Assembly (NCBI GenBank): GCA_951813395.1
Contig: OX638356.1
Coordinates: 1,715,340 to 1,779,339, forward strand
DNA from: Longimicrobiales bacterium
GTDB taxonomy: Bacteria > Gemmatimonadota > Gemmatimonadetes > Longimicrobiales > Gaopeijiaceae
Length of the DNA: 64,000 bases
Reading direction: 5' to 3'
Position 1 is the stretch's first letter; every line of letters begins with the position of its first letter. A program made the position numbers and the translations under genes. The notes below the pieces were generated by a model. That model saw only the letters and a program-made list of their open reading frames with translations. It did no database searches and was not told the origin of the DNA. Below are positions 10,713 through 53,060 of this stretch, piece by piece.

Positions 10713-10724
10713 CCATTGCTGTTG

Positions 10725-10751
10725 TTAGCACTCGCGCACATTGAGTGCTAA
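10725..10751 (+). promoter_or_regulatory. CIRCE operator (HrcA binding site)
   Basis: Perfect consensus inverted repeat TTAGCACTC-N9-GAGTGCTAA, both 9-base arms matching exactly. CIRCE is bound by the repressor HrcA, which GroEL keeps active, so groESL is induced when GroEL is titrated by unfolded protein. It lies 60 bases before the groES start. hrcA itself is not in the window. Confidence 0.97.
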
Positions 10752-10811
10752 CACTGGCAGCGGGCACGCCGCCCGCGATTCCAAACCAACCCATTCCAAG
10801 GAGGAGCGCGC

Positions 10812-12836: not shown

Positions 12837-12866
12837 GGGGTCCGGGCGCGCGCGCGCCCGGACCCC
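12837..12866 (+). terminator. Strong palindromic hairpin after groEL
   Basis: Perfect 30-base palindrome with arms GGGGTCCGGGCGCGC and its exact complement, 28 bases after the groEL stop, followed by GCTTTC. The stem would be extremely stable. The T-run is only three bases, so it may act as an intrinsic terminator of the high-GC type or as an mRNA end-protecting structure. Confidence 0.7.
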
Positions 12867-48836: not shown

Positions 48837-51239
48837 TCAGCGGCTCAATTCCGAGATCAGTGCCGGGCCCGCGGGATCGCGGGGGTGGGCCTCGGCCAAC
48901 GCCCGCGCGTACCGCAGCGCCTCGCCCGTCCGGCCGGCGTCGCGGTGCAGCACGGCCAGCGCGACCAGAATATCGCGGTCGCGGGGGTGCCGGTTCAGCG
49001 CCTGCTCCAGCACGTCCCGGGCCGCCGCGGTGTCCCCCGCCGACCGGAGGGCCACGGCGTACGTGTAGGCGTAGCGGGTGCCCCGGGCCTCATGCTCGGC
49101 GGCCCGCCGCAGTGAGGCCATCGCTTCGCCGCTGCGGCCCAGCCGGACGAGCAGCAGTCCCAGCGCGTGGTGCGCGTCTGCTGATCGGGGCGACTGGTCC
49201 AGTGCGGACCGCAGGAGAGGCTCGCCCTCGGGGTCGCGGTCGGCGCGGCGGTACAGGTCCGCGAGGTTGACGTATGCGGGCACGAAGGCGGGGTCCAGGG
49301 CGATGGCCTTCTCGAGGGCCGTTTCGGCCCGGTTGCGGTCGTCTTCCAGCACCGCCAGCCAGGCCAGGTTGAGTTGCGCTTCCGGGCGTTCTGCATTGGC
49401 GAGCTGCGCCTCGCGGTACTCGGCCAGAGCTTGGCGCAGCGCCGGTTGGAGCGGCGGGGGGAGCGGCACGGCAGTCGGCGGGGCAGGCGCGGAACGGGGT
49501 CGCGGCTGGCCCGTCCCGTTGCCCCCGTCGGGTTGGATCGCGAAGGGGGCCACGGCCTCGGCGGCGGCCAGGCGGACCGCGCGTACAGGATCCTGGAGAA
49601 GTGGCACCGACATGTCCAGGAGTTGTCGAGTGGGCGAGAGCCCGACACCGCGCACGGCTCCGAGTCGGACGATCGGATCCGGATCCTGCAGCCCTCGCCG
49701 CACCGCTGCCACACGCTCCGGGGCAGGGTCGGACCCCAGCAGGGTCAGCGCCGTCGCCCTGGTGATGGCAGGGGCCCCGGGGTCGCGCAGCAGCGCGTAC
49801 AGCCCGGGACGACTCTCCGGATCTCCCCTGCGGGCGGCGTCGAGCGCGAGGGCGTGGTATCGCGTGCGCCGGGTCGGGGCGCCGTCCCGTCGCTCCGCGA
49901 TCGTGGCGGCGGCCTCGGCGCCCGTCATCTCCGAGTGGCAGGTCGTGCACGGATCCGCCGCACCGATGTCCCGGGATGTCTCCGCGTCCGGTACGCGGAA
50001 GGAATGGTCGCGCCGCGGGTCCACCCCCATGTAGGTGCGCGCAGCCATGTGACAGGAGACGCACAGGGACGCCCTTGTCCCACTCTCGTGGAAGTGGTGA
50101 TCGGGGGTGTCGAACCGCGACGGTGTGTGACATGTCGCGCAGACGGCGTTGCCCTCGCCCCGGACGCGGAGCGAATGCGCATCGTGACAGTCGTTGCATG
50201 TGACCCCGGCGCGATACATGGCGCTCTGCACGAACGAGCCCCAGACGTAGACCTCGCCCCGGATCTGTCCGTCCGCGAAGTAGAGCCCCTCTTCGAGCAG
50301 CGCCGGCTGGTGCGAGTCGAGAAGCGTCTGGCCGTGCCGGTAGCGCGCGGTGATCGCGGAGCGCCGGGCGTGGCAGCGGCCGCAGGTGTCGACCTGTCCA
50401 TCGGAGGCTGGCCCCGCGAGAGGACGGGCGGTTCCGGTCTGCGGATCCCGCAACCAGGCCCCGGGATCGTGTGCGTCGAAGCGGACGACAAGTCCGAGGT
50501 CCGCCCCCTCGAGCGACGCCGCGGGAACGAACGATCCGGAGTCAAGAGCCTCCGCCCAGGCCACATGCCCCGAGCCCGGTCCATGGCAGGCTTCGCAGCC
50601 CACGTCCGGCTCGGCCCACTCGGTGGCATAGCGATCCGACGCCGCCGAGTAGTTCTTGCGCAAGCCCGTCGAATGGCAATCGGCACACATCGAATTCCAG
50701 TTGAAATCGCGTCCGCTCCAGTGCCGGACGTCGCGCACGGCGGGCGCGGGGCCGGTCGCGACCGGGACATCGCTTTCCCCCGGCTCAACCTCGAACCAGC
50801 GCTGTCCGCCCTGGTCGACCGGGCGCGAGTCCCACGCGACGGGGAGCACCTGGTAGCGCCCCCCCGGGAACTCGACCAGGTATTGCTGCAGGGGGACGGC
50901 TCCGAAGGTGTATGCAACGCGATACTCTCCCGCCGCGCCTCCGGGACCCTCGGCACGGGCGACGAACGCCGGCCCATCGCGGAGGAGCGTCCAGACCGAC
51001 GACGACCCTTCGAATCGAGCGCCTCCGAAGTCACCCAGGACGGTCTCGGCGGTGGCGCCCTGCATCGCAAGGTCGTGGTGCGATCCGGCCCAAAGGTCCG
51101 CTTCGGCCGTGTGGCAGGACATGCACTGGGCGTTGCCCACGAATCCCGACTCGGCCGAGAGCATTTCGCCGTCACCCCGGGGAGCGCATGCAACGAACGA
51201 GATCGGCAATAATGTAAAGTAAACATTACATAATGTCAT
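48837..51239 (-). CDS. Octahaem c-type cytochrome with HEAT and TPR repeats
   Basis: An 800-residue exported protein. Eight CXXCH haem sites occur in order: CMSCH, CADCH, CEACH, CGRCH, CNDCH, CATCH, CVSCH, CTTCH, all in the N-terminal half. A HEAT-like region follows (RATALTLLGSDPAPERVAAVRRGLQDPDPIVRLGAV in pieces), then a Pro-rich linker and TPR repeats to the end (LNLAWLAVLEDDRNRAETALEKAIALDPAFVPAYVNLADLYRR in pieces). A lipobox-like SFVAC lies at residue 18. Likely periplasmic electron carrier or redox-sensing scaffold; no oxidase or reductase lies next to it. Start uncertain: ATG 51239 sits inside a palindrome, and GTG 51257 would add a charged residue to the signal. Neither has a clear ribosome site. 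Confidence 0.85.
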   Translation of the reverse strand: MTLCNVYFTLLPISFVACAPRGDGEMLSAESGFVGNAQCMSCHTAEADLWAGSHHDLAMQGATAETVLGDFGGARFEGSSSVWTLLRDGPAFVARAEGPGGAAGEYRVAYTFGAVPLQQYLVEFPGGRYQVLPVAWDSRPVDQGGQRWFEVEPGESDVPVATGPAPAVRDVRHWSGRDFNWNSMCADCHSTGLRKNYSAASDRYATEWAEPDVGCEACHGPGSGHVAWAEALDSGSFVPAASLEGADLGLVVRFDAHDPGAWLRDPQTGTARPLAGPASDGQVDTCGRCHARRSAITARYRHGQTLLDSHQPALLEEGLYFADGQIRGEVYVWGSFVQSAMYRAGVTCNDCHDAHSLRVRGEGNAVCATCHTPSRFDTPDHHFHESGTRASLCVSCHMAARTYMGVDPRRDHSFRVPDAETSRDIGAADPCTTCHSEMTGAEAAATIAERRDGAPTRRTRYHALALDAARRGDPESRPGLYALLRDPGAPAITRATALTLLGSDPAPERVAAVRRGLQDPDPIVRLGAVRGVGLSPTRQLLDMSVPLLQDPVRAVRLAAAEAVAPFAIQPDGGNGTGQPRPRSAPAPPTAVPLPPPLQPALRQALAEYREAQLANAERPEAQLNLAWLAVLEDDRNRAETALEKAIALDPAFVPAYVNLADLYRRADRDPEGEPLLRSALDQSPRSADAHHALGLLLVRLGRSGEAMASLRRAAEHEARGTRYAYTYAVALRSAGDTAAARDVLEQALNRHPRDRDILVALAVLHRDAGRTGEALRYARALAEAHPRDPAGPALISELSR

Positions 51240-51250
51240 GTTTACTTTAC
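51214..51250. promoter_or_regulatory. AT-rich 37-bp inverted repeat, likely operator
   Basis: Perfect 13-base arms GTAAAGTAAACAT (51214-51226) and ATGTTTACTTTAC (51238-51250) around an 11-base loop. Nested inside is a second palindrome, ACATTA-CA-TAATGT (51223-51236). The block is almost pure A/T in a GC-rich genome and lies between the divergent cytochrome and amidohydrolase genes, covering the cytochrome start codon. It looks like a binding site for a dimeric or double-dimeric repressor. Confidence 0.75.
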
Positions 51251-51536
51251 TAGTCACGTGTGTAGGACTACGTTTGGGGGGCACCTGTTGGCAGGGTCGT
51301 TCGGAGCCTTCGGGATTGGCCTCGCAGGCCTCCGCCGGGTTGTCGGGAACCGCAGCATAGAAGCGGGTGCGAAACAGGGCAAGGAAAGAGGACCGGACTT
51401 GCCGCCCGTGGAGGAACCGACGCCGGAGGGGGGGATCCTTGTTCGGCGGTACCCCAGGACCTATATCGGTGGCAACGGCGTGCGGCCCGCATCTATTCAT
51501 GCCGTCGGAGTACGGCGCGTCCAAGGGATGGCAACC
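51251..51536 (+). other. Leader region before the amidohydrolase gene
   Basis: This region extends the amidohydrolase frame upstream but encodes nonconserved sequence. It follows the 37-bp palindrome and ends with AAGGG before the ATG at 51537. No RNA element or small gene was recognised; CTATATC near 51460 could be part of a promoter. Confidence 0.35.
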
Positions 51537-53060
51537 ATGATCACCACCCCCGCCTTTCGGTATTCCTTTTCCGCGATCCTGTTGTTCTCGCTGGTGCTCG
51601 GGTCGTCCACCGTTGCCGCCGGCCAGGCCGCGACCGCCGTCGTCGGCGCCACCCTCATCGACGGGAACGGCGGTCCGCCCCTCGAGAACGGCACGATCGT
51701 CTGGACGGGCAACCGGATCACGGCCGTCGGACCGCGAGGCTCGATCGAGGTGCCCGACGGCGCCCGTGTGATCGATGGCGCCGGCAGGTTCGTCACGCCC
51801 GGTTTCATTGACAGCAACGTTCACCTGTCGCTGTACGGGGCAGGGGAGACCATCGTTCGCTATTTCGACCGGAATGCGGCCCTGACGCTCGAGGCCGCGC
51901 AGATGCAACTCAAGCACGGCTTCACGACCGTGCGCGACAGCTACGGGTCGCTACTCGCCCTGATGGAGATTCGCGATGCGGTTGCCCGCGGCGACACGGT
52001 CGGGCCGCGCATGCTGGTGGCGGGGAACATCGTCGGGTGGGGCGGGCCGTATTCGATCAGCTTCTCGCTCATACGCGAACGGGGTCTGACCCTCTTCCAG
52101 GAGCAGTTCAACGACTACATCACTCAGGGTTCGGGCGAGGAACTCATGGAGATGGAGCCCGAAGATCTCCGTGCCGCGATCAACGACTACCTCGACCTGG
52201 GCCCGGACTTCATCAAGTTCGGGGGCACGGGCCACTTCTCGAATCCGATCATGATCGGGTTCTCGTCGAGGGCGCAGCGCGTGATGGTCGAGGAGACGCA
52301 CAAGCGCGGCCTCGTGGCCGAAACGCACTCTACGAGCCCAGAGGGGCTGCGTATCTCGGTGGAGGCCGGCATCGACCTCATTCAGCATCCGGGGGTGCTC
52401 TCCTCCGACATGTCGGACGAGCTGGTCGAGATGATTGTCGACCGTGGGATCGTGTGCGCGTTCCTCTCCAACACGGTTACCGGCAAGGCCTGGCAGGATC
52501 ACCTCGATGCGCAGGCCGAGCGGATGGAGAGGGAGGCGAAGGAGAAGACCGAAGCCGAGGCGGCGGGCCAGGACGCGGACAGGAGGAAGAAGACCTCGGC
52601 CGAGTTGCGCGCGGAGCGGCGTGCTCGCGGCGGGGGCATCGAGATCCGCCGCCGCAACACCGAGAGGCTCATCGAGGCCGGATGCGTATCCACGATCGGG
52701 ACCGACAACTACCTGGGCACCGCGCCCGAGTTTCGGCGGTCGCCCAAGGCCGAGAACCAGGCCTTCGGGTCTGGCAGCGTCATTGCGACCGAAGGGTTGG
52801 TGGAACTCGGCATGACCCCGATGGAGGCGATCGTGGCCGTGACGAGGAACGGAGCGATCGCGTCCAGGATGCTCGACGATCTGGGTACGCTCGAGGTCGA
52901 CAAGTTCGCGGATATCCTGATACTGGACGCGAACCCTGTCGAGGATATCAGCAATATCCGCGCTATCGGCACCATCATCCGCGATGGCCTCATCGTAGAT
53001 CGTGACGCGCTCCCGTACGAGAGGATCTTCTCACGGCCGGGCAAGGGGCACGCGTGGTGA
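51537..53060 (+). CDS. Secreted amidohydrolase-superfamily protein
   Basis: A 507-residue protein with a Sec signal (FSAILLFSLVLGSSTVAAGQ). The composite-domain start is VGATLIDGNGGPPLENGTIV. The TIM barrel has metal-site segments PGFIDSNVHLSLYG, KFGGTGH, VAETHSTSPEGL, IDLIQHPG and GTDNYLGT. The first HxH pair reads N-V-H, so the first His ligand is replaced by Asn. A charged helical insert (ERMEREAKEKTEAEAAGQDADRRKKTSAELRAERR in pieces) lies between strands 6 and 7. Related exported proteins include prolidase-like and imidazolonepropionase-like amidohydrolases; no substrate can be named. ATG 51537 is preferred for its signal peptide and the AAGGG upstream. Confidence 0.82.
   Translation: MITTPAFRYSFSAILLFSLVLGSSTVAAGQAATAVVGATLIDGNGGPPLENGTIVWTGNRITAVGPRGSIEVPDGARVIDGAGRFVTPGFIDSNVHLSLYGAGETIVRYFDRNAALTLEAAQMQLKHGFTTVRDSYGSLLALMEIRDAVARGDTVGPRMLVAGNIVGWGGPYSISFSLIRERGLTLFQEQFNDYITQGSGEELMEMEPEDLRAAINDYLDLGPDFIKFGGTGHFSNPIMIGFSSRAQRVMVEETHKRGLVAETHSTSPEGLRISVEAGIDLIQHPGVLSSDMSDELVEMIVDRGIVCAFLSNTVTGKAWQDHLDAQAERMEREAKEKTEAEAAGQDADRRKKTSAELRAERRARGGGIEIRRRNTERLIEAGCVSTIGTDNYLGTAPEFRRSPKAENQAFGSGSVIATEGLVELGMTPMEAIVAVTRNGAIASRMLDDLGTLEVDKFADILILDANPVEDISNIRAIGTIIRDGLIVDRDALPYERIFSRPGKGHAW

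Follow-up and report, generated by a model that had tools for sequence, protein, structure and literature searches.

The window analysed here is the full stretch of 64,000 nucleotides at positions 1,715,340 to 1,779,339 of contig OX638356.1, from a Longimicrobiales bacterium (genome G000) whose 4.09 Mb genome is a single contig. Within it, a minus-strand gene for an octahaem cytochrome with TPR and lipoprotein features diverges from a plus-strand amidohydrolase gene (Table 1). A preliminary description of the sequence had reported, between the two, a perfect 13-base inverted repeat with an 11-base loop that spans the apparent cytochrome ATG. This proved exact on recheck: the arms (51214-51226 and 51238-51250) are perfect complements around the 11-nt loop TACATAATGTC, the ATG lies inside the repeat, and the site encodes part of the predicted signal peptide (peptide MTLCNVYFTLLPISFVAC), as claimed. 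The AT island within GC-rich DNA was likewise recovered, with the 42-mer at 51208-51249 reaching 81% A+T, the maximum of the window (runner-up 64%), against an overall window GC content of 68.1%. The second, 6-base palindrome is present as ACATTA (51223-51228) and TAATGT (51231-51236) with a 2-nt gap, but it is only partly nested in the first, overlapping the left arm at its final four bases.

Table 1. Features at the cytochrome-amidohydrolase locus, in window coordinates.
Feature	Position	Strand	Basis
Octahaem cytochrome/TPR lipoprotein gene	48837..51239	-	Pfam; eight CXXCH motifs
Likely cytochrome ATG, inside operator	51237..51239	-	Orthologue N-termini
Alternative in-frame GTG start (MTSKVNMTLC...)	51255..51257	-	Sequence
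Divergent amidohydrolase gene with signal peptide; alternative ATG at 51528	51537..53060	+	Pfam PF01979
Inverted repeat of the preliminary description	51214..51250	.	13-bp arms, 11-nt loop
Tandem operator (41 bp), centre 51232	51212..51252	.	Leave-one-out matrix, 61.7 bits; recurs genome-wide and genus-wide
Dyad 1, ATGTAAAGTAAACATTACAT	51212..51231	.	Genome-wide site alignment
Dyad 2, ATGTCATGTTTACTTTACTA	51233..51252	.	Genome-wide site alignment
Promoter-like hexamers ATGACA, 17 bp, TACATT; predicted transcription start ~51204	51211..51239	-	Sequence match only
Promoter-like hexamers ATTACA, 17 bp, TACTAG (weak -10), facing amidohydrolase	51225..51253	+	Sequence match only
Operator-holding segment lacking end-to-end similarity to this locus in close species	51145..51615	.	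Nucleotide comparison

Taken by itself, the inverted repeat does not exceed chance, since five Markov shuffles of the window yielded longest arms of 11-15 bp, and it was rejected as evidence on its own. The longest perfect inverted repeat detected in the window is a GC-rich palindrome of 15 bp at 12837-12866 (GGGGTCCGGGCGCGC/GCGCGCCCGGACCCC). A further repeat, TGTTAGCACTC-N9-GAGTGCTAACA at 10723-10753, matches the motif of the CIRCE/HrcA heat-shock operator.

Tandem dyads in the genome and the genus

The palindrome forms part of a 41-bp element composed of two 20-bp dyads (consensus ATGTAAACTNNAGTTTACAT) that are separated by one base, so that their starts lie exactly 21 bp apart. A matrix derived from 14 other sites, with the window site left out, assigned the latter a score of 61.7 bits, compared with -10.6 for the best other place in the window and a maximum of -6.3 over 20 Markov shuffles; unlike the lone inverted repeat, the tandem-dyad pattern is far above chance. 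The suggestion that the palindrome is an operator is supported, although the unit is a pair of tandem dyads rather than a single hairpin-like palindrome. A single diverging dyad (GTTTACATNATGTAAAC) was also considered as the unit and set aside, having been found at 22 places compared with 31 for the converging 20-bp dyad, with nearly all sites paired at 21 bp.

The genome-wide search with the arm sequence that had been proposed to find a regulon was productive, returning 21 strand-matches with at most two mismatches versus one for the reversed control. A strict tandem pattern (at most three mismatches) occurs at 15 places in G000, with none for its reversed control, and a profile of 24 sites returned 59 strand-matches at about 30 places; two weak half-sites (L060 and L064) of alignment A1 were not carried over into model alignment A3. 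Targets, named by reading the translations of those seen, include exported hydrolases, dehydrogenases, a Rieske protein, glutamine synthetase III, blaI, and modABC; among the targets identified by eye, no molybdenum theme was apparent beyond modABC. Four of 30 G000 sites examined fall within coding sequence and may be chance matches. At L047 (G000:C1:2280802), a site within an SMC-like gene, KAELTS heptads of 21 bp mimic the tandem spacing, and the match is probably fortuitous. Two other sites (L009 and L010, at G000:C1:899194 and 1173062) are identical 41-mers with near-identical flanks 274 kb apart, indicating a duplicated stretch that carries its operator.

When 59 genomes were scanned, the strict pattern was present in 22 of the 23 genus genomes, with between 15 and 141 places apiece, these copy numbers being dependent on the threshold of the pattern. 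G010 has the most places (141), followed by G014 (100), G012 (86), G005 (72), and G021 (71), and G000 has the fewest (15). The sole genus genome with no strict match is G008 (94% complete), and a profile scan gave the same split. Copy numbers are those of the strict pattern, as the profile scans covered at most 111 and 150 candidates per genome. No strict match was found in the 36 genomes from outside the genus, nor any match to the reversed pattern in all 59. In a 400-kb sample of G021, which holds 16 tandem pairs, strong dyads recurred at no spacing other than 21 bp (six cases; the next best spacing occurred once). Many of these Gemmatimonadota MAGs presumably derive from sponges.

An XRE regulator associated with the element

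A degenerate form of the tandem pattern was used to scan 84,980 prokaryote genomes and returned at least 120 stretches, 80 of them titled among the matches listed. These 80 divide into 47 from Gemmatimonadota and 33 from other groups, a split that leaves out 40 untitled stretches, 16 of which also have an XRE gene within 1.5 kb. The other groups among the matches listed include Bacteriovoracaceae, Planctomycetota, Bacteroidota, Bacillota, Acidobacteria, and one Methanoperedens archaeon. Among these listed matches, a gene for a small YozG/CylR2-like XRE protein lies no more than 1.5 kb from the element in 29 of the 33 loci outside Gemmatimonadota, and in 22 of 26 once the seven loci used to build the profile are removed; the corresponding figure for Gemmatimonadota is one of 47, the one being an XRE frame of regulator length. 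The neighbouring small XREs share a signature helix, (S/T)RQ(T/A)(I/V)xxIE. Of the 33 listed loci from other groups, 18 additionally have a neighbouring gene for a multi-helix membrane protein that bears a DER motif, as does none of the 47 from Gemmatimonadota. In several loci (L181, L193, L197, L208, L211, L252, L255, L258, and others) the operator, the XRE regulator, and a small DER-motif membrane protein (one of which matched DUF2178) form a module like CylR1/CylR2. In three Bacteriovoracaceae loci (L192, L217, and L242), the operator is centred between divergent ABC transporter and XRE genes, the start codons of which lie ~28 bp off on both sides. A phage origin of the element was rejected: the IMG/VR contigs L177 and L178 share one stretch of 47-49% GC with a perfect tandem copy (a direct dyad repeat) and, by eye, no regulator-like frame nearby.

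A profile (A5) of 20 small XREs, none of them titled Gemmatimonadota (two rows, L275 and L292, with GC contents of 0.49 and 0.47, are untitled), was searched against the 59 relatives. At E<=1e-9 it had a single match in every one of the 22 element-bearing genomes of the genus and none in G008; matches were also obtained in 12 of the 36 genomes outside the genus, which lack the element. The gene found in G000 (G000:C1:366727-367836) encodes a protein of 369 aa and is the first gene of an operon that also contains modA, modB, and modC. The protein carries an HTH_3 domain (PF01381, 43 bits, residues 10-64) and a PBP_like domain of the molybdate-binding type (PF12727, 146 bits), with no TOBE domain detected by Pfam. 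Downstream, modA scores 129 bits (NCBIfam cut-off 62.5) and modB 204.5 bits (cut-off 182.6), and the third gene encodes a modC-like ATPase with a best match, under its cut-off, to TIGR02142. The tandem element occupies the regulator's own promoter in 22 of the 22 genomes (20 at 30 bits and two weak sites at 29.8 bits). The analysis establishes the element with its 21-bp spacing and its spread through the genus, as well as an association with XRE genes and a one-to-one co-occurrence with this regulator. That co-occurrence does not amount to 22 independent observations, because the absence of both gene and element from G008, possibly a single early branch, may be one event on the tree; the co-occurrence may thus reflect one or a few events. 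The single XRE and PBP_like protein that heads modABC is most likely the genus regulator of the element. It is probable that the element is the tandem operator of an XRE dimer and that this regulator is autoregulated, likely a repressor, and a putative sensor of molybdate or tungstate.

Other binding partners were weighed against these observations. A BlaI/MecI-type repressor (G000:C1:3298227-3298610) merits consideration in that its gene has a tandem site some 200 bp upstream in G000 and that this family favours TACA/TGTA half-sites; the BlaI/MecI and CopY operators (TACANNTGTA) resemble the central part of the element, which reads TACATNATGTA. However, the element has three bases rather than two between TACA and TGTA, its paired regulator in other phyla (among the matches listed) is an XRE protein, and the site upstream of blaI exists in only some species. 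Moreover, a BlaI orthologue is present in the site-free G008 and was not found in G010, the genome with the most sites. As its presence does not track the element, BlaI was rejected, and its role as the regulator is very improbable. An ArgR-like hexamer, for which the likeness is one of geometry only (ARG boxes consist of two 18-bp palindromes 3 bp apart), is scarcely credible as the binding protein given the XRE genes that accompany the element across phyla among the matches listed. The element could instead be a mobile or selfish short repeat of the REP or MITE kind that has no protein partner of its own, as might be proposed from its high and variable copy number, its labile positions, and, among the relatives searched, its confinement to one genus. 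Against this, the copies (mean identity 76%) agree mainly at symmetric, contact-like positions, vary in the centre, and differ in their flanks, and the element is both retained before the regulator throughout the 22 genomes and found beside XRE genes in unrelated phyla. A mobile repeat is hence highly unlikely, and the reading as an operator of the XRE and PBP_like protein is retained below.

Among characterized systems, the closest PDB sequences to the HTH of this regulator are those of CylR2 (phmmer; 2xiu, E=1.3e-9, and 1utx, E=3.1e-8). CylR2, a small XRE repressor of Enterococcus faecalis, has a predicted membrane protein as its partner and binds divergent promoters that overlap; as described in the source, it has 66 aa and no ligand domain and governs one operon (PMC3709268). 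The genus regulator is related to CylR2 through the HTH sequence, and the membrane partner CylR1 recalls the pairs of XRE and membrane proteins beside the element in other phyla. It is nevertheless not a small protein with a membrane partner of the CylR2 kind, being fused to a PBP_like domain and heading modABC, with an element that recurs tens to more than 100 times per genome. By its HTH_3 domain and the dyads in its own promoter, it would form with the element a candidate operator-regulator pair of the Cro/CI (XRE) repressor kind, and by the mod operon and the molybdate-type binding domain it is a putative molybdate-responsive regulator. ModE, a winged HTH protein with Mop/TOBE domains, resembles it in probable ligand class and in the modABC target; the HTH_3 and PBP_like domains and the lack of TOBE set the genus regulator outside the ModE family. 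Plasmid homologues alike in sequence and setting occur in Thermomicrobium and two Deinococcus, beside modA, and in Nostoc, beside nif genes. These four, annotated as 'substrate-binding domain-containing protein', share about 35-40% identity with it over nearly the full length. Counting against the assignment of this regulator to the element, a tandem site was recognizable in only one of the four, in D. psychrotolerans, where two weak dyads 21 bp apart, with TTGACA-17-TACACT, immediately precede the ATG of the XRE-PBP gene. Also against it, G034, outside the genus, encodes the regulator and modABC, and no site was found there, the stretch covered at the regulator ending at the gene start, short of the promoter. 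In G033:C28 (L331), ATGTAA...ATTAC pairs lie just upstream of an XRE-PBP gene with a spacing of 22 bp rather than 21, possibly an ancestral or drifted operator. A published description of such a regulon, or of an XRE-PBP molybdate regulator, was not found in open-licence papers.

Proposed action and the cytochrome start

The two dyads, with centres 21 bp, or two helical turns, apart, would each be bound by a Cro/CI (XRE) family dimer. A -35 hexamer, TTKACA, lies in one dyad and, after 17 bp, a -10 hexamer, TACATT, ends the other; T directly follows the second dyad at 63 of 112 distinct sites, with the same count for each side, in DNA of about 68% GC. A gap of 17 bp is that of sigma-70 promoters, and the element may therefore act as promoter and operator in one, with enough symmetry for promoter activity in both directions. 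Since the -35 and -10 hexamers are within the dyads, a pair of dimers on the element would hide the promoter, making repression the likely action. In keeping with a built-in promoter, 16 element-adjacent XRE genes from other phyla, their start codons chosen by rule, begin 23-61 bp from the element centre, with four at 28-29 bp, the predicted position of the transcription start. From its domain content and neighbouring genes, the regulator would sense molybdate or tungstate; the targets identified by eye, with no molybdenum theme beyond modABC, count against the overall reading.

The arrangement at the cytochrome gene differs in that the element covers the first codons. The preliminary description had offered two ways out, simultaneous control of transcription and translation or a true start elsewhere. 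The latter was not borne out: in orthologues from eight other genomes (65-71% aa identity), starts, where evident, fall within a few codons of the ATG, and the lipoprotein signals (MTRLRICAAVSLLAC and MRRAQTICLTASLVAC) align with it within about three codons, which supports a predicted start at or near this ATG. The alternative GTG at 51257 is possible and would add MTSKVN, including a lysine more typical of a signal peptide. With either start, the operator occupies the first cytochrome codons, and the operator reading needs no simultaneous control of translation. The predicted minus-strand transcript would miss the ATG, which lies 7 bp upstream of the element centre, and because the predicted transcription start is downstream of the likely start codon the built-in promoter cannot serve the gene at this and four more of the 30 G000 sites. 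The other four sites covering a likely start belong to exported proteins (a beta-lactamase-like hydrolase, an amidase, a CocE-like hydrolase, and a D-aminoacylase-like protein). As a proportion of five in 30 fits, by a rough estimate, a broad placement around starts, such overlap appears to be a tolerated position and not a rule. The element's cover of the first codons points to an operator that, for the cytochrome, would obstruct transcription from a more distant upstream promoter or would serve the divergent amidohydrolase.

It is also conceivable, if somewhat doubtful, that the operator serves only the amidohydrolase here and that the cytochrome, transcribed from a promoter of its own, tolerates the AT-rich codons of its signal peptide. 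Hydrophobic, AT-rich sequence is indeed tolerated in signal-peptide codons, four other sites are placed alike, and the plus-strand hexamers face the amidohydrolase; on the other hand, their -10 is weak, a transcript from them would have a leader of about 270 nt, and a degenerate tandem site lies upstream of the orthologous cytochrome gene in two genomes (G007 and G011).

For most small XRE regulators of this class, no DNA target is known to have been assigned. The present comparison ties to that class an operator that is present across many bacterial groups and in a single archaeal genome, and finds one genus using the same operator code tens to more than 100 times per genome. A speculative reading is that a local molybdate/tungstate repressor of modABC might have turned global in this one Gemmatimonadota genus, presumably a largely sponge-associated one, by way of a symmetric 41-bp two-way promoter-operator cassette; trace-metal supply would then determine how strongly secreted hydrolases and a multihaem cytochrome are expressed. 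The self-contained nature of the cassette, arising in or exchanged into many promoters and sometimes falling inside signal-peptide codons, is proposed to account for the genus-wide rise of the repressor. Both the passage from a single-operon repressor to a global regulator and the signal read by these uncultured bacteria become testable, with G008, which lacks gene and sites, as a natural control.

Absence of the palindrome from relatives that conserve the coding sequence had been named in advance as grounds for doubting the operator. Such absence was observed at the cytochrome, where six of the eight orthologues lack the element (G007 and G011 have the degenerate upstream site), but it does not count against the operator because the nearest species carry a different cytochrome allele (72-75% nucleotide identity versus 88-89% for the neighbouring amidohydrolase). 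G003, G016, and G019 are mutually 90-91% identical across the whole cytochrome-amidohydrolase locus. Compared with these three, G000 is 88-89% identical in the amidohydrolase from ~51615 and only 72-76% identical at the nucleotide level in the cytochrome; between ~51145 and 51615 only short fragments align to the close species. In the downstream sulfatase, G000 is 81-82% identical to G003 and G016. With divergence far above that of the amidohydrolase, the cytochrome and its upstream region, operator included, appear to be a replaced segment, and the divergent cytochrome segment of G000 would explain why the nearest species have no site here.
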